Positions 1,069 to 46,704 of a stretch of DNA of 64,000 nucleotides are shown piece by piece. The notes under the pieces were generated by a model, which was not told the origin of the DNA, did no database searches, and worked only from the letters and a program-made list of their open reading frames with translations. Both the position numbers and the translations under genes were made by a program. The stretch is from Armatimonadota bacterium (GTDB lineage: Bacteria; Armatimonadota; Fimbriimonadia; Fimbriimonadales; Fimbriimonadaceae). The DNA lies in assembly GCA_022563855.1 (NCBI GenBank), contig JADFMN010000001.1, forward strand, positions 310,001 through 374,000, in the 5' to 3' direction. The stretch's first letter is position 1; each line of letters begins with the position of its first letter.

Positions 1069-3651
1069 ATGGATGCCTTCTCCGACGATCATCCCGAGTT
1101 CACTGGCGCGTTGATCTCCATGGAATTTGGCGCCGGTGGGCGGATACACCAGCTATGGGCGTCCGACCCAGATCTGCCTGACGAGGGCGAGGACTTTCAG
1201 TTCATCCTATCGCCGGTCGCCTTTGGCCAGGAGACGGCGGAAGACTACTACCCTGGCACGATCCTCATCGGTATTCGCTCTGATCCAGGCGACCCTTGGG
1301 TTTTGAGCCGCAACAGTCGAGCGAGGCGGCCGGAGGCCGATGACGAGCCGGACGACGACAGCACGGTCGAATTCGAATACGAGATGCCTCTCATCGACGA
1401 CTTGAAGGTCACGGGCCGTTACTTCGAGCTTCCAGGCACGATGCCACAGGTTGTCTGGGAGGTCACGTTGAAGAACAGGAGCCGGCACGCGGTGGAGATC
1501 GGCGAACTCGGATTTCCCTTGGCGTTTAACAATCTGTACGACGGGTTTGGCTGGAACGACGATCAGCTCAAGCGCTTGTGGAATTCGCGGGTGTACGTGC
1601 ACAAGTTCATCGGCGGCGGAGCGAGCTGGCTGTTCGCTCAGCGAATGACCGCTGAGACGCCGGGGCTGCTCGTGTTCCCCGGCACCGATACTTCCTGGGA
1701 GTTCTACAATCACGTCCGAGCGAGCTTGACGACCTCGTACCAGTGGGAGGGGATTCCCGTCGTTTACGTCTACAGCAAGGCGACAATCGAGAGGGAGCGC
1801 GGTGAAGGTTGGCACAACGACCACACGTCCCTCATCCTCGAGCCGGGCGAAGAGCGGACTATGCAGATGCGGTTCGTCCCGACGGAGAGCGATCAGCAGG
1901 ACGGCGTCCACCAGACTCTGGTGGCGTGCGACCGACCGGCGGTGCGCCTGCTCCCGGGCGCGGTTGCTCCGATCGACGTCGGGATCGCGATCGAGGTCGC
2001 TGGCGCCTCGCCCAAGGAGTTCCTGTTCAGCCGTGAGACCGAATCGCAGATCGATACAGATGAGAGCGGTGGATTCTGCTTTGTCAAGCCCTCGACGCCT
2101 GGTCCGCTGCGCGTCAGTTTTCGCGACGACGAAGGACGCATATGCCACACGCACCTTCTGTTGACCGAGCCTCTCGGCGACCTGATCCGAAGTCGGGCGG
2201 AGTACATCCATCGGTTCCAGATCATCCGCAAGCCGGGGTCGGTCCTCGATCACGCTTTTGCAAACACGGACATAACGACCGGGACGCCGGTTGTAGATCT
2301 CGCCGATTACCGCGAGCCTGGCGGGATCGAGTGCAGCCTTGCGGACGCACTGTACCTAGCAGAGAAGAACACCGTGTACCCCGATCGAGACCAGATCGCC
2401 GCCCTGGACGCCTTCATCGAGGAGTTCTTGAGGGACGAGGTCCAGAATCCTGGAGACCACTCGGTAGCGAGCGTCCTGTCGGGTGAAGAGCCGTTCGGAG
2501 CGTACGTAGGCCGCCCGCTCGGCTACCCGCACGTTACGAATCTGTACCACTCGATGTACCGGATCGCATCGACGTACGGCGAAACCGCCAGCGCGCCGCT
2601 GGTGTACCTGCGGTGGGCCGCCGCGACCGCAACGGCGATGTTCAACTTTGGCTGGAGGCATTACGTCCGAACGGTCGGCGTGCTGGGGTACGCGCGTATC
2701 TACGATCTGCTCGATGATCTTCGGCTGGAGGGCCTGACCGACGAACATTCTTCTCTACAGGAGTTGGTGCAGTTCAAAGCCAAGGAGTTGATGAGGCACG
2801 AATACCCGTACGCTGGCGAGTCGGTGCTGGACACCTCAGGTTTTGAGGAGGTGTTTGCCGCGGCCAAGTTCAGAGAGGACGACACGCACCTTGAGCGCAC
2901 GGTGCGGTGCGCGTTCGCCGTTCGATCGTTAGCTCCGAGCTGGTGGTGGTACGGAAGCGACAAGCGGTGCTGGGACGGCAACGACTCGACTCCGACTCGA
3001 GCGATGGCCGACCGCGGCGAGCTGTGTCTGGGGCACACAACGATCCCGAACTCCCTTATCTTCTACGACCTGCTCGACCGCGACTACCTCGCGATTCCTG
3101 ACGCGTATATGAGGCTGGCGTTCGGAGGAATGCTGGGGCCTTGGGCGCTCGTTCGCCCTGATGGCGCCGCTTCGCTTTGCTACTGCCCGGATCAGTCCTC
3201 AAAGCATTGGGGTTTCAATCGGTACACGGGCGCCAGCGGGCTTGGGTACTACCACTACCTGAGGCGCGTGGGCTCCTACGTTTTGCCAGATCACGCTCAA
3301 GGGGTCTTTACGTTCGGATGCCACTTTGAGTCAGACGATGAGTCTTACGTCGTTCGCCCGTGGGACGGCGTCGGCCGCCACATCGTCCTCCGGCAGTTCG
3401 GCGCAGAGTTCACGCTCAGCTTCGGCCGTATCGTGTCGCTCAAGCTCGACCGCCGAAAGCGCTGGTTCGAGCTGGAGATTGAGAACCCGTCCGACAAAGA
3501 CGTTGACGCGAAGCTCGCCATCGTCGGCATGTGGGGGGATCGAATCTCGGTCGCGGGCACAGAGACCGACAGCGACGGCGGAGCTGCGATCGCCAAGCTT
3601 CGCCTCCCTGCGCGACACACGAGTCACTTCAGAGGTAACGTCGTTTCGTGA
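1069..3651 (+). CDS. Large carbohydrate-related protein, DUF5695-like
   Basis: 860 residues with no obvious signal peptide or membrane segment. The N-terminal 300 residues are beta-rich (VWEVTLKNRSRHAVEIGELG, then KRLWNSRVYVHKFIGGGASW). The C-terminal half is rich in aromatic residues and helices (WWWYGSDKRCWDGNDSTP, about residue 625), resembling an (alpha/alpha)6 barrel as in carbohydrate-active enzymes. The pattern resembles the DUF5695 family found in cell-envelope carbohydrate loci; this is a memory-based match and no substrate can be named. A GTGA overlap at 3648-3651 couples it to the small coiled-coil membrane protein downstream. Confidence 0.6.
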   Translation: MDAFSDDHPEFTGALISMEFGAGGRIHQLWASDPDLPDEGEDFQFILSPVAFGQETAEDYYPGTILIGIRSDPGDPWVLSRNSRARRPEADDEPDDDSTVEFEYEMPLIDDLKVTGRYFELPGTMPQVVWEVTLKNRSRHAVEIGELGFPLAFNNLYDGFGWNDDQLKRLWNSRVYVHKFIGGGASWLFAQRMTAETPGLLVFPGTDTSWEFYNHVRASLTTSYQWEGIPVVYVYSKATIERERGEGWHNDHTSLILEPGEERTMQMRFVPTESDQQDGVHQTLVACDRPAVRLLPGAVAPIDVGIAIEVAGASPKEFLFSRETESQIDTDESGGFCFVKPSTPGPLRVSFRDDEGRICHTHLLLTEPLGDLIRSRAEYIHRFQIIRKPGSVLDHAFANTDITTGTPVVDLADYREPGGIECSLADALYLAEKNTVYPDRDQIAALDAFIEEFLRDEVQNPGDHSVASVLSGEEPFGAYVGRPLGYPHVTNLYHSMYRIASTYGETASAPLVYLRWAAATATAMFNFGWRHYVRTVGVLGYARIYDLLDDLRLEGLTDEHSSLQELVQFKAKELMRHEYPYAGESVLDTSGFEEVFAAAKFREDDTHLERTVRCAFAVRSLAPSWWWYGSDKRCWDGNDSTPTRAMADRGELCLGHTTIPNSLIFYDLLDRDYLAIPDAYMRLAFGGMLGPWALVRPDGAASLCYCPDQSSKHWGFNRYTGASGLGYYHYLRRVGSYVLPDHAQGVFTFGCHFESDDESYVVRPWDGVGRHIVLRQFGAEFTLSFGRIVSLKLDRRKRWFELEIENPSDKDVDAKLAIVGMWGDRISVAGTETDSDGGAAIAKLRLPARHTSHFRGNVVS

Positions 3652-5510: not shown

Positions 5511-6098
5511 CTACTGGATCTTCGGGGGACTGAGAATTGGCGGACGGGGGTTGGCGAGGTTCTTGGACACAGGCAACAAACTCACCCAGTCTTTATAGAC
5601 TAGCCACTCGTATTGCGTTGCAAAAGCTCGACGTGGAATCGTAGACAGTTGGGAACCGTTGCCTAGCACTACGACGGTAGGATCATCCCCGGGCAGCCGG
5701 AAAAGCAAGTCTGTCGGTGTCGCGTGCTCGATGCCTGAGTTAGAACGAACTCTCCAGAACTGGTCGTCTATCTCGATTACTGCAAGGTCGCCTGTCGGCA
5801 ACATTCCGACGTCTCGCAAACTTCGCTTCAACCCATACATTGGGTACAGGCAGACGACTGCCCCAAGGAATGAGAGCACAAAGAGAAGCCACAGGATCAC
5901 ACGTGCCCAGCTCTTCCAGGATTCCTGCATTGCCGTGTTATTGACAAATAACTCAAACAACGCGATAAAGACAGCGAATACTGCGGTCAATGTGATAAAC
6001 CTGATCAAGAGACTCTTAAACTGCCCTCTGATGAGAGGCAGTTGGAGTTTCGCCAGCTCCTCCGACGATAAGCCGAATGGCAAGGTCACGATTCGCAT
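5511..6098 (-). CDS. Hypothetical membrane protein, YcxB-like layout
   Basis: 195 residues. A short cytoplasmic N-terminus precedes two transmembrane helices (about residues 33-52 and 68-86), after which a soluble beta-rich domain contains GDLAVIEIDDQFWRVRSNSG and IPRRAFATQYEWLVYKDWV. Two adjacent helices followed by a PH-like region ending in IPRRAF resembles the YcxB-type fold (compare IPKRAF in that family). Function is unknown. It lies 9 bp downstream of the PLP enzyme gene on the same strand, so it is probably the last gene of that operon. Confidence 0.6.
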   Translation of the reverse strand: MRIVTLPFGLSSEELAKLQLPLIRGQFKSLLIRFITLTAVFAVFIALFELFVNNTAMQESWKSWARVILWLLFVLSFLGAVVCLYPMYGLKRSLRDVGMLPTGDLAVIEIDDQFWRVRSNSGIEHATPTDLLFRLPGDDPTVVVLGNGSQLSTIPRRAFATQYEWLVYKDWVSLLPVSKNLANPRPPILSPPKIQ

Positions 6099-41388: not shown

Positions 41389-44300
41389 CTACGGCTTGAT
41401 GTACAGATAGCCGGATGAGAACATCGGGCTGGCTGGTGGTCCAGCTGTAAACCTCACCGCGATCATGCGCGACACAGGCACCGTTATGACCGTAAAGTTT
41501 GCGGACGACTGACCCTCGGGGATCGTAACCGTGAGTACACCAAATTGGTCTGCACCGACAATCACAGCCAGCAGTAGGTTGTGGCTCATGATTTCGATCG
41601 TCAGTCCACCCACAGGTGCGGGTTGATCGAGGGTCACGGTGCCGATCGCGTTATTGCCACCGAGCACGCGCGGAGGCGCGAACGTGATGCCTGAGATGAC
41701 CGGCGCGCGGACTGTCAGCGTCGCGTTAATAACCGAGGATTCCAACGTCGCCGTTATCGTCTCGACAGAGTCGAACGAGACCGCGAATGTGGTGATCGTG
41801 AACGAGGCCGTATCAGACCCTTCGGGGACGTTGACCAGCGTCGGCACGGCCGCCGCAGAGCCTGGCACTGCGGCCAAGAGCACGTCCAAACCACCTTCTG
41901 GCGCAGTGATCGCCAAAGTGACCGTGCCTGTCGCAGGCGTCGGCCCCGTAACGGTGCTCGGATCGATCACCAGGCTGACGATGCCTGGCGTCTTGACGGT
42001 CATGGTCGCGCTTGCGAAGACCGCAGGACTGGCCTCAGCTCTGATCACCACTCCCTGATCGCTCTGAACCTTCAGGGTCGTGACGTCGAAGTCGAACGTC
42101 GTAGCGCCACCCGGGACATCGACTGTCGCCGGCACGGTGGCCGCTTCAGGCCTTGTAGACGACAACGTGAGCGTCAATCCTGTCGGCGGTGCCGCAGGTG
42201 CGAACGTGACGGTGCCAACCGAGTTATCGACTCCGCCCACGACCACAATTGGATCGAGAGTCAGATCGATCACAAGCGTTCGAACCGTCACCGTTTCTGT
42301 TTGAGTCGTGAACCCGAGTTTGCTAACCGACAGCGTCGTGACTTCGTCAGCGCTCACGACCTCTGTCGTAAACATGAATTCAGGGCTGATCAGCTCTCCA
42401 GGTTCTATCGTTATCGTCGAAACTGACAACGTGCCTGCTGCTGGGTTCGAATTGTCCAGATCGACCGTGAATCCGCCAGCACCGGCAGCGCGCGTCAGCC
42501 GCACAACGACCGTAAGCACTGTGCCACCGATCACGTCTGTTGCCGGCGAAACCACCAACTGAGCTATGTCGATGTCGTCGATGAACAGAGTGCCGTCCAC
42601 CGATGTGACCGTGTCGCTGGCGTTCAAGGTCACCGCCGACGGGCTGGGCACGAACGGAGCTGTCACGGCGAAGTTGACCTCCGACTCCTGCGCGGGGATA
42701 ACTACCGTCTGCGGAAGGGCGTTGCCTTCAACGAGCGCGCCCGTCGCGCCGCTGACGTACGTTATGTCGATCGTGCGGTTGATGCCCGATTTGCCGGACA
42801 ACCTCACAGTGGCGACAGTGTCTTCGCCGCCGTTCACACGCGTCGGCAAGAAGCTCAATATCTGCACTGTGGCAGGCGTCAGCGAGGCGAAGGCGTCTTT
42901 ACCAACCCCGAGCAGCGACCCGGTGATCGTCAAGTTTTGGGCTGTCGTCACGCCGGAGGTCTCCAGCAGGATCGACGATGTTTGGGCGCCTGCCGGCACG
43001 GTCAACTGCGCCGGGACCGGCAGCGTCACCAGATCCGGGCGGTCGGTCGTCAACTGTACGGTCACCGCATCCATCGCCACCTGGAACAACGTCACACGTG
43101 CAGTCAGCTGATTGCCGCCAACGATTTCTGATGGCGAGATAGAGAAGTCATCTAGCCACGGCTTGATGGTCAGGCGGTCTTCGACGAAGTCGTTGTCGAG
43201 GGTCACCCGAACATCGCTGATCGATTGTGACGTGACCGGCAGCGAGAACACCGTCAGGGTCGTCGTTGTCGTATCGACAGCTATCGTGAATATCAGAGTC
43301 GTCGAGCCCGGATCCACATCGAACGAAGTCGCAGCCGGATTCGAGAGCGTTGCGGTTAGCGTCACGCCGCCTGGCGGGGCTGGGTCGCGCAGATTAACCG
43401 TCACTGTGGACGTCACGCCGAGTCCGCCGGCCATCTCATTCGGATCCAGCGAAATGCTGTCGAGGATCGGCAATCCAACGCGGAGCTTGATCGCCCAGCC
43501 GTCTTGGTTGGCGCCAACGTTTCTCTTGAACGCGTTGTTCGTAATATAGGGGCCTAAGCCCGTCGGCAATTGCTGCTGGCCGTCTGCATTGTAAACGACC
43601 GTCGTGTCACCGACTAGCCACGTTGCGCCGACCACGTCGACGATGATGTCGTTGACGATCTCGTCGCCGCACTCGCCGATGTAGTCCGAGTACAGCAAGT
43701 CCGAGCCGGCCGCGTTCATGAACATCACGAACCCATCGACAGACGATGGAAAAGCACTGGGAGTGTTCGGATCCGGGTTGTTCGGCGGAAAGACAAGATT
43801 GTCGCCGCAATCGTACACGCCGTCGAGTCCATCGACGATCGGGATCGATCCCGGAATGGTGTTCGCTATGCCAAACGGATTAGGATGGATGAAGCCGACG
43901 ACGCCGCCGATAATGGCGATTCCACGGTCATCAACTGCGATCTCCATCGGTATGACGTTGCCGGTCGTGCGCAGGCCGGTCGAGTACAGAATCGCCGCTC
44001 CGTCCGCCTTGATCTTGGTCGCAAACGACTTGGTCGCGGTAGAGAAATTCTCGTCGTACGCGCCGTGGTTTCGCGGGAAGTCGAACGACTCCGTCCGCCC
44101 AGTCACGTAGATGTCCCCTAACTGGTCAACGGCGACGTCAGCGATATCCTCTAGGTTCGCGCCGCCGAGGAGACTCGAGAACTGTGTAGACCCTCCGGAG
44201 TTCATCTTGACGATGAACGTCTCGTCGTTGCGGATGAAACGTCCGTTTTCGTATACGCCGGCAGTCGTTGGGAAGGTTGGCGGCGACGTTACGCCAGTAT

Positions 44301-45813
44301 CCTCTGTGCCTGTGAACGGGAAGAAGCCGACGAAGATCACGTTATCGTCGCTGTCCACCGCGAGGCCGGTCAAAGTGTCGTCCTCAGCACCGCCTACCAA
44401 CTTCTGGTAACCGATGTTTGCGGAGCCGTCAAGGGACGTAACAAAGCCGTCAACGCCACCGCCAGCGAATGCCAGGAAGTCGGTGAACGCGCCAAGATCA
44501 GCGTTGTCCGCCATGCCAGCGATGTAAACCACGCCGGACTGCGAGACCTTCATATCTACCCACTCCATGCTTGGGCCAGCGGCGACGTAATAGCTGGAGA
44601 ACAGCGGCGTCACAACGCCCGCGGCATCGACCGAGAACTTGGTCAAGAAGATATCTGTAACGTTCACGAGCGCAGTGCCGTTCGAAACGCCTGGGAAGTC
44701 AGACGATTCAGTCGTACCGCCGATCCACAGTTCGCCAGTGCTGTTAACCAAGCCGATACCTAAGGCGGATTCCGTACCGCTGCCGCCGATGTAGGCTGCG
44801 TAGCTCATCGTGTAGGCGTCGCCCGCTAAGCGAACCAGGAAAATATCTTGAGCGCCGTTCAGCGAGAAGCCGTACGGGCCGTCTGTTATAGGGAACGTGA
44901 TCGAGGTGGTCGAGCCCGTCATGAACAGGTTTCCGTTCTCATCCGCGACGCTGGTAGCCAGCGTCTCCCAACCAGTCGAGGCAAACGTCGCGTCGCTGCC
45001 GACGTACGTCCCGTAGACGAGGGGGTCGATGATGAGCGGAAGCCTGTGATCGTAGTCGCCGATCTCAAAGCCGACCCGATTTGGGCCAAGCAGTATGAAT
45101 CGAGCGTCAACGACCTTTCTGGCGTTGCCGATCGGCTGGTAGGCAAACGGGCGCGAGTTTTCGATCGTGCCGAGATCGGTGTAAATCCACAACTCGCCGT
45201 CGCGGGTGAGCTCGATGCCGTCCGCTCCGGTCACGTCATACATCACTTGGGCTGGGTCGGCACCCGGTTCTATAACGATGTCGAAGCGATTCTTGTAGCT
45301 GTCGAAGTAGTTTCGGAGATGAACACCTGGGTAGATCGAGGTTGCGTACGCTTCGGTGAACGTCTGGACTCCGCGCGCGTGCCGCGAAGGGTCCGAGCCG
45401 ATCAGAAAGTCCAACGTGACCTCGGCGGGGCCGTAGCCGAACGGCTGCGTCAGCTTAGAGGCGCCGACGAAGTTCAGGCTGACAACGTGGCCGACGCGGC
45501 GCAGTCCAGCGCCTGCCTCGCCCAAGCCCCCGCCGCCACCAAAAGTGCCGTCCTTCTCGAAGCCGTAAAAATCTATCGTGATGCCGTTCTTCGTCACCCA
45601 ATAATCCAGTCCAGGCGACTTGGCAAGGTACAGCGCACGGGAATCCCACTGGCCCCGATTCTCGATAAACGTCTTGGCTAGTCTCTGCTGGAATGAAGAT
45701 CCTGGGTTTGGCGGAGGCGTCCCGCCTTGTCCCATTGCGATTCCACTCGTCACGAAGACACATGCCGCTAACAACAAGCTGCGTTGAAACATATCTCTCA
45801 AACTCACACTCAT
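41389..45813 (-). CDS. Giant SBBP/DUF7948 secreted surface protein
   Basis: 1474 residues from ATG 45813, preceded by GGAG and beginning with a signal peptide (FQRSLLLAACVFVTSGIAMG). Residues about 40-260 are a DUF7948-type domain (TFIENRGQWDSRALYLAKSP, GLDYWVTKNGITIDFYGF). Then about 450 residues of SBBP beta-propeller repeats (for example VDQLGDIYVTGRTESFDFPR), followed by seven or so Ig-like beta-sandwich repeats of about 90 residues, each with a P-x-x-V-x-GG start and a VTIPEGQSSANFTVIT-like end. There is no LPXTG, Por or transmembrane anchor at the C-terminus (ends GYLYIKP). Probably an adhesin or surface matrix protein. Confidence 0.88.
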   Translation of the reverse strand: MSVSLRDMFQRSLLLAACVFVTSGIAMGQGGTPPPNPGSSFQQRLAKTFIENRGQWDSRALYLAKSPGLDYWVTKNGITIDFYGFEKDGTFGGGGGLGEAGAGLRRVGHVVSLNFVGASKLTQPFGYGPAEVTLDFLIGSDPSRHARGVQTFTEAYATSIYPGVHLRNYFDSYKNRFDIVIEPGADPAQVMYDVTGADGIELTRDGELWIYTDLGTIENSRPFAYQPIGNARKVVDARFILLGPNRVGFEIGDYDHRLPLIIDPLVYGTYVGSDATFASTGWETLATSVADENGNLFMTGSTTSITFPITDGPYGFSLNGAQDIFLVRLAGDAYTMSYAAYIGGSGTESALGIGLVNSTGELWIGGTTESSDFPGVSNGTALVNVTDIFLTKFSVDAAGVVTPLFSSYYVAAGPSMEWVDMKVSQSGVVYIAGMADNADLGAFTDFLAFAGGGVDGFVTSLDGSANIGYQKLVGGAEDDTLTGLAVDSDDNVIFVGFFPFTGTEDTGVTSPPTFPTTAGVYENGRFIRNDETFIVKMNSGGSTQFSSLLGGANLEDIADVAVDQLGDIYVTGRTESFDFPRNHGAYDENFSTATKSFATKIKADGAAILYSTGLRTTGNVIPMEIAVDDRGIAIIGGVVGFIHPNPFGIANTIPGSIPIVDGLDGVYDCGDNLVFPPNNPDPNTPSAFPSSVDGFVMFMNAAGSDLLYSDYIGECGDEIVNDIIVDVVGATWLVGDTTVVYNADGQQQLPTGLGPYITNNAFKRNVGANQDGWAIKLRVGLPILDSISLDPNEMAGGLGVTSTVTVNLRDPAPPGGVTLTATLSNPAATSFDVDPGSTTLIFTIAVDTTTTTLTVFSLPVTSQSISDVRVTLDNDFVEDRLTIKPWLDDFSISPSEIVGGNQLTARVTLFQVAMDAVTVQLTTDRPDLVTLPVPAQLTVPAGAQTSSILLETSGVTTAQNLTITGSLLGVGKDAFASLTPATVQILSFLPTRVNGGEDTVATVRLSGKSGINRTIDITYVSGATGALVEGNALPQTVVIPAQESEVNFAVTAPFVPSPSAVTLNASDTVTSVDGTLFIDDIDIAQLVVSPATDVIGGTVLTVVVRLTRAAGAGGFTVDLDNSNPAAGTLSVSTITIEPGELISPEFMFTTEVVSADEVTTLSVSKLGFTTQTETVTVRTLVIDLTLDPIVVVGGVDNSVGTVTFAPAAPPTGLTLTLSSTRPEAATVPATVDVPGGATTFDFDVTTLKVQSDQGVVIRAEASPAVFASATMTVKTPGIVSLVIDPSTVTGPTPATGTVTLAITAPEGGLDVLLAAVPGSAAAVPTLVNVPEGSDTASFTITTFAVSFDSVETITATLESSVINATLTVRAPVISGITFAPPRVLGGNNAIGTVTLDQPAPVGGLTIEIMSHNLLLAVIVGADQFGVLTVTIPEGQSSANFTVITVPVSRMIAVRFTAGPPASPMFSSGYLYIKP

Positions 45814-45992
45814 CGACCCACTCCAATACTGACAGCGAGCTACGCTTTGGCCAAGCCCACGAGTCGAATCACGAACTCGCCCAAGGTAACAGGCCCGCGC
45901 AGACATACGCCCGACGCAGGTCGCCAGTACTCGACGGCAAGTGTAACTCATTCAAGGGACGGAAGGATACGTTTGATTGGTTCGACGCGCGA

Positions 45993-46039: not shown

Positions 46040-46101
46040 AGATGCCTAGAAACGCCCAATTTCAGGTGAACTCTTGCCGGTCTGGACCGTTTTGACGGTT
46101 G

Positions 46102-46704
46102 ATGACACTACGATGGACGATCCTCTTGGCCAGCCTGGCAGTTGGGCTGACAGCCGGGGCAAGCGAGCAGCGCCGGGCTGACGTTCGATTGAAGGAGGGC
46201 GATAAGGCTCCGAATTTCAAGTTGAACATCCTTCACTCTGAAAAGACGTTTGAGCTGAAGAGCAACTTCGGAGAGCGGCCCACTATTCTCATTTTCGGCA
46301 GCTACACGTGACCGCCTTTCCGCTCCCAGGTGGGAGCGCTCGAAAAGTGGTTCGACGAGTACAAGGACAGGGCAGACTTTCGGATAGTGTACATTCGGGA
46401 AGCCCATCCGAGCGACGGCCGGCGGGCTAGAGGGAACAACCGATCCGGCATCAACGTAAAATCGCCGACAACGCTCGATGAGAGAACTGAGATTGCCACG
46501 GTTTGCGCCACTGAGCTTAAGATCAGCATTCCGATCATCATCGATGGATTGGACGACAAGGTCGGGACGGAGTACGGCGGCTGGCCAGATCGAATCTATG
46601 TCATTGGCACAGACGGCAAGATCGTCTATCAGAGCGGCCCGGGACCACGCGGATTCAAGCCTCAGGAAGCGAAGAAGGCCCTGACAGAGTACTTGAAGAG
46701 CTAG
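46102..46704 (+). CDS. Iodothyronine deiodinase-like selenoprotein (TGA = selenocysteine at residue 70)
   Basis: 200 residues when TGA 46309-46311 is read as Sec. The N-terminus is a signal peptide (LRWTILLASLAVGLTAG). A thioredoxin-fold domain follows: EGDKAPNFKLNILHSEKTFE, then RPTILIFGSYT-U-PPFRSQ, DEYKDRADFRIVYIREAHPS and DGRRARGNNRSG, ending with YGGWPDRIYVIGTDGKIVYQ. The order FGS-x-T-U-PPF ... VYI-EAHPSDG matches vertebrate type 1-3 deiodinases and bacterial DI-like proteins. A 7-bp hairpin with AGGT loop follows the TGA by 9 bases (SECIS). If Sec is not inserted, the product would be a useless 69-residue fragment although the downstream half is well conserved, so read-through is strongly favoured. 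Without iodothyronines in bacteria, a general reductive dehalogenase or thiol/peroxide role is likely. Confidence 0.9.
46309..46338 (+). promoter_or_regulatory. Bacterial SECIS element at the in-frame TGA
   Basis: TGA (46309-46311) is followed by 9 bases and then CGCTCCC (46321-46327), loop AGGT (46328-46331), GGGAGCG (46332-46338): a perfect 7-bp, mostly G-C stem. The loop starts 16 bases after the TGA and has G at its second and third positions, as in the E. coli fdhF loop (AGGUCU). This agrees with the known rule that bacterial SECIS loops lie about 16-37 nt after UGA with G among the first two bases. Confidence 0.8.

Follow-up and report, generated by a model that had tools for sequence, protein, structure and literature searches.

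The forward strand of the window (the whole 64,000-nucleotide stretch analyzed here, from an Armatimonadota bacterium) carries a frame that is open on both sides of a single TGA codon and whose translation resembles the active site of the vertebrate deiodinases (DIO). Two questions arise from this locus: how the TGA is read and, if it codes for selenocysteine (Sec), which reaction the product may catalyze in a bacterium.

Bacterial selenoproteins of the deiodinase type are not new. In the available portions of the sources, Sec and Cys forms with a bacterial SECIS element were described from the Sargasso Sea data in 2005, with a redox role proposed (PMC1088965), and such proteins recur in later surveys and reviews (GOS 2008, PMC2398784; PMC9312934; PMC13188914), where the redox motif is given as UxxC (PMC9312934, PMC13188914). 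The gene described here therefore adds to an already known group. The surprise expressed in the initial annotation is overstated, given the 2005 report and the existence of an NCBIfam model, NF038285.

The gene and its reading frame

Translation returned one TGA, at residue 70, and the peptides FGSYT-U-PPFRSQ and VYIREAHPSDG as first read from the sequence (Table 1). The expectation that automatic annotation would split the gene was borne out: mechanical ORF calling gave two pieces, 46099-46311 (70 aa) and 46330-46704 (124 aa). Annotation pipelines that split such genes make the family look less widely distributed than it is. A profile search of the genome found this gene as its sole PF00837 match. 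The flanking genes, a large beta-propeller-repeat protein and a small lipoprotein-like ORF, lie on the opposite strand, so the gene probably stands alone. Positions 41389-45951 (minus strand) of the window encode a 1520-aa protein with DUF7948 and beta-propeller (SBBP) repeat matches, likely at the surface or secreted.

Table 1. Features of the deiodinase-family locus (window coordinates)
Feature	Position	Strand	Details	Evidence
Deiodinase-family selenoprotein CDS	46102..46704	+	200 aa with TGA as Sec; stop codon TAG	Translation; PF00837, 117.7 bits
Signal-peptide-like N-terminus	46102..46161	+	MTLRWTILLASLAVGLTAGA; AGA ahead of possible cleavage site	Direct reading; hydropathy; low pLDDT of residues 1-30
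In-frame TGA, Sec70	46309..46311	+	Active-site residue	Same column: TGA in 21 further genes of the phylum, otherwise Cys
SECIS-like hairpin core	46321..46338	+	CGCUCCC-AGGU-GGGAGCG	z -2.9 (dinucleotide shuffles) and -3.1 (synonymous shuffles)
Cys135, candidate resolving cysteine	46504..46506	+	Helix 125-138	Present in 20/21 aligned proteins; two family members without Cys135 have Cys68

Decoding of the TGA

The genome that holds the window (3.18 Mb, 22 contigs, 96% complete) contains the complete Sec machinery, the first check proposed in the initial annotation. A tRNA-Sec was found at 74.2 bits, and ARAGORN calls the same tRNA tRNA-SeC with anticodon TCA; SelA, SelB and SelD were matched at 513, 345 (over the cut-off) and 359 bits, respectively. 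The SelD gene (L077, about position 5870, minus strand, G000 contig C4) has its own in-frame TGA near the N-terminus (CAG-U-ASK), at the site that holds Sec in selenoprotein forms of SelD. SelD is probably itself a selenoprotein and, in view of its in-frame TGA, this genome appears to have a use for Sec decoding other than the deiodinase-like gene.

In the window, TGA closes 11 of the 33 long frames as a normal stop. This usage bears on two other ways of reading the codon. One takes the TGA as a real stop that leaves a truncated or decaying pseudogene, and is favored by the usage itself and by the behavior of a standard gene caller, which would stop the ORF at 46311. The second has the UGA decoded otherwise than as Sec, by a reassigned code or by suppression; nothing was found to point to it except that the frame is open, and the ordinary use of TGA as a stop argues against it, as does the presence of the Sec machinery with its tRNA.

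The phylum provides the wider evidence. Among 291 of its genomes, 19 gave strong PF00837 matches whose domain contains one TGA, and five others gave matches that lack the TGA and have Cys as the active-site residue. The motif FGSx[T/R]-TGA was read directly in 22 genes (the window gene with 20 close relatives, plus L072, a distant one), with the TGA at the same column throughout. Cys also occupies this column in L069 and in L080, a Mycolicibacterium plasmid protein, and Trp never does among the aligned homologs; the column is thus Sec or Cys, an outcome in favor of the initial annotation, as are the Sec machinery and the PF00837 match. The selA gene is present in all 19 TGA genomes versus none of the five genomes with only the Cys form, at a base rate of 149/291. 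The corresponding P values (hypergeometric 1.6e-6 for its presence in all TGA genomes, Fisher 2.4e-5 for the contrast between TGA and Cys-form genomes) are guides only, because the genomes are related.

The hairpin downstream of the TGA was examined in all 22 genes. In the window gene it extends to a longer fold at about 46310-46352, and the z score of -2.9 (dinucleotide shuffles) refers to the folding of 54 bases from the TGA; the apical loop starts after 16 bases and has G at its second position. A hairpin was counted when it had a loop of 3-14 bases, a stem of at least 4, a G at loop position 1 or 2 and a loop start 13-37 bases past the UGA. These limits are modeled on published accounts of bacterial SECIS elements, except that the lower bound of 13 is looser than the usual 16. 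The expectation was obtained from synonymous-codon shuffles that preserve each protein; counting of base pairs in a SECIS alignment was dropped for this procedure because the hairpin takes two or more registers among the genes. SECIS-like hairpins were found in 20 of the 22 genes versus 7.3 expected, two genes having none by these criteria. With the loop start narrowed to 14-23, a range chosen after the first result was seen, the count was 18/22 versus 3.8 expected (tail P about 1e-11, assuming independence). The Cys-coding homologs had no such hairpin by the same criteria (0/5), and no Rfam family matching the hairpin was found.

That 22 genes share this TGA codon with conserved sequence on both sides, always in the presence of selA and usually with a SECIS-like hairpin, makes the pseudogene very improbable. 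Decoding otherwise than as Sec is just as hard to credit with a column that alternates between Sec and Cys and never holds Trp. The 21 further genes of the phylum in practice rule out that the TGA is a sequencing error. That the TGA of the window gene codes for Sec is strongly supported; the UGA would be decoded by SelB and tRNA-Sec, guided by the hairpin just downstream, as the computations support.

Relatives and variants

Several relatives differ from the window gene in organization. The locus L056 (G123:C134, 3004-4951) holds three tandem Sec deiodinase-like genes with TGA at 3202, 3881 and 4559, the first with UGPF in place of UPPF; a protein that matches rhodanese and MoaE is encoded nearby. 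In L062 (6221-7522) the deiodinase domain follows about 260 residues without any Pfam match. The distant L072 (G123:C53, 2771-3457, minus strand) resembles a selenoprotein gene, contains EAHP and a UPYC motif, scores slightly below the PF00837 cut-off, and corresponds to the UxxC type of the reviews. The paralog L069 (G210:C240, about 6120, minus strand) has an active-site Cys (FGSCTCPRF) and an in-frame TGA about 15 residues past the active site, where its relatives have mostly Arg or Lys; this TGA is probably damage or an assembly error.

A scan of genome contigs, in which phyla other than that of the window were hardly sampled, gave two weak relatives, both from Bacilli. No deiodinase-like relative was found in viral contigs and phages, and the plasmid search gave one of Cys type. 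On the Mycolicibacterium plasmid NZ_CP126902.1 (L080, 752-2722), the Cys-type deiodinase-like gene adjoins a carboxymuconolactone-decarboxylase-family gene and a glutaredoxin gene.

Fold and active site

When U was replaced by Cys, the window protein matched PF00837 (T4_deiodinase) on both sides of the TGA, far over the cut-off of 27 bits (E = 6.7e-34). AhpC/TSA (PF00578) reached 34.3 bits (cut-off 26) and Redoxin was also weaker than PF00837. The protein was filed under PF00837, since this match is far stronger than that of PF00578. It also has the Thr/Ser that peroxiredoxins carry three residues before the nucleophile (Ser67, ahead of U70). The sole PDB sequence matches at E <= 0.001 were mouse DIO3 (phmmer E = 3.7e-21) and DIO2. 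A chance open frame is ruled out by the PF00837 and DIO3 E values and by the TGA kept in 21 further genes.

The AF2 model (21 homologs, pLDDT 88.8) agrees with the thioredoxin fold assigned initially. VIA-align placed DIO2 (Z 22.4, 173 aligned, rmsd 2.9) and DIO3 (Z 21.4, 177 aligned, rmsd 3.7) closest, followed by the peroxiredoxin AhpE (Z 18.5, 143 aligned, rmsd 1.9) and ResA (Z 17.9), and Foldseek likewise ranked DIO2 and DIO3 first. The computations thus support a thioredoxin/peroxiredoxin-fold product with the deiodinase-specific loop. Prediction is poor for residues 1-30, which fits a signal peptide, and the predicted signal-peptide-like N-terminus is in line with the export proposed in the initial annotation. 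By hydropathy, the N-termini of families f1, f2 and f3 are mostly signal-peptide-like, a character that the f13 N-termini lack; the N-terminal region is longer in two f28 proteins, L062 among them.

Through residue 206, DIO3 numbering equals window numbering plus 100. Ser67, Tyr97, Glu100, His102, Arg128 and Arg164 are invariant in the alignment, and Thr69 nearly so. The DIO3 network 167/169/170/197/200/202 is matched by S67, T69, U70, Y97, E100 and H102. At the positions of DIO3 His219, Arg275 and Trp207, which have a role in hormone binding (PMC7506546, PMC11592359), the window protein has Pro, Pro and Arg, so that neither the His219 and Arg275 contacts nor equivalents are found in it. In family f13, as in DIO2, these positions are His, Lys and Trp. 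In the tree, DIO2 and DIO3 group with L069, a long-branch row, at 81/91 support, a grouping that may be an artifact and gives no reliable placement within the bacterial branch.

A candidate resolving cysteine

The UPPF motif itself contains no Cys. Cys135 is present in all aligned proteins except L054, which has Cys68 (FGSCTU), as in DIO3. L069, a Cys form, has Cys68 without Cys135, and the distant L072 has Cys73 without Cys135. Cys135 and Cys68 never occur together (20 versus 2, Fisher 0.004), an exchange that depends on two exceptions only, one of which (L069) is a damaged-looking gene. The helix position of Cys135 may be comparable to that of the resolving Cys of some thiol peroxidases. That proteins lacking Cys135 carry Cys68, as DIO3 does, suggests that Cys135 may resolve the oxidized selenium. 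Re-reduction of human DIO1 by glutathione requires the Cys at the equivalent of position 68 (PMC9141512).

Proposed function

The protein, by strong computational support a genuine deiodinase-family selenoprotein, may act as an exported Sec redox enzyme, most likely on a hydroperoxide or an oxidized thiol, with Cys135 as the resolving residue; we hold this reading to be moderately probable. The N-terminal signal peptide would carry the protein out of the cytoplasm. There, the Sec70 selenolate would attack an electrophile, most likely a hydroperoxide or oxidized thiol and possibly a halogenated aromatic. Cys135 would then resolve the oxidized selenium as a selenenylsulfide, which a thioredoxin-like protein of the envelope could re-reduce. 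Thyroid hormone is unlikely as a substrate, and peroxide or thiol reduction appears a more likely role.

A reductive dehalogenase acting on halogenated aromatics other than thyroid hormone is a possible alternative, though a rather doubtful one. In such an enzyme, Sec70 would take iodine or bromine as a cation and the Thr69-Tyr97-Glu100-His102 network would give the proton. Fold and profile are nearest to DIO2/DIO3, f13 has the His and Lys of the DIO2-like hormone clamp, and all of Ser167, Thr169, Tyr197 and Glu200, whose mutation inactivates or cripples DIO3 (PMC7506546), have their counterparts in the window protein. Nevertheless, Glu200 may merely anchor the loop (PMC7506546), the clamp positions of the window protein are substituted, and no halogen-related gene was seen near the examined loci. 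The gene neighborhood was rejected as a clue to the substrate because neighbors are not conserved: in the operon context of the relatives, no neighbor gene is shared beyond close relatives, with the exception of an HslU-like gene (named by eye only) in three f2 genomes, and no conserved neighbor hints at the substrate.

A broader form of the dehalogenase proposal would extend to all bacterial UPPF proteins, of which some families would be exported and another has no signal peptide. These proteins would be true reductive dehalogenases of environmental iodo- and bromo-aromatics that have kept the entire deiodinase proton network, the resolving Cys having moved between positions 68, 73 and 135, and the deiodinases of animals would have arisen from this branch as one of its lines, bearing a hormone clamp like that of f13. 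We regard this scenario as unlikely.

Relation to known proteins

Returning to the favored redox enzyme, its closest known counterparts are the bacterial PF00837 selenoproteins. As far as the available text of the surveys and reviews describes them, they share with the window gene the active-site Sec, Cys homologs elsewhere and a bacterial SECIS right after the UGA, but the reviews give UxxC, whereas the window protein has UPPF, a motif without Cys, and the conserved Cys135 instead. In the available portions of the surveyed literature, no description was found of a UPPF protein that carries Cys135, nor of the apparent switch of resolving Cys.

The vertebrate DIO1-3 (4tr3, 9h48) have the same fold and loop insertion, FGSxTUPPF, EAHPSDG and all relay residues, and the window protein is 31-34% identical to mouse DIO2/DIO3 in the catalytic domain. 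On the other hand, the window gene has a bacterial SECIS within the coding region and a signal-peptide-like N-terminus, its protein has Pro for the clamp residues His219 and Arg275, and Cys135 is absent from DIO2/DIO3. NF038285 (deiodinase family protein) matches all 21 aligned proteins, the window protein in its C-terminal domain (E 6.5e-60), but at 203.4 bits the latter stays below the curated cut-off of 250 and lacks the approximately 178 N-terminal residues of the model. Peroxiredoxins and ResA-type proteins (AhpE, Bcp, ResA) share the thioredoxin fold and the PF00578 match but are less similar than DIO; the window protein has the deiodinase loop, and Sec in place of their Cys.

The set gathered here comprises 22 Sec genes and five Cys homologs in one phylum, with two kinds of N-terminus and alternative resolving cysteines. 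It provides concrete proteins for asking what deiodinases did before thyroid hormone.
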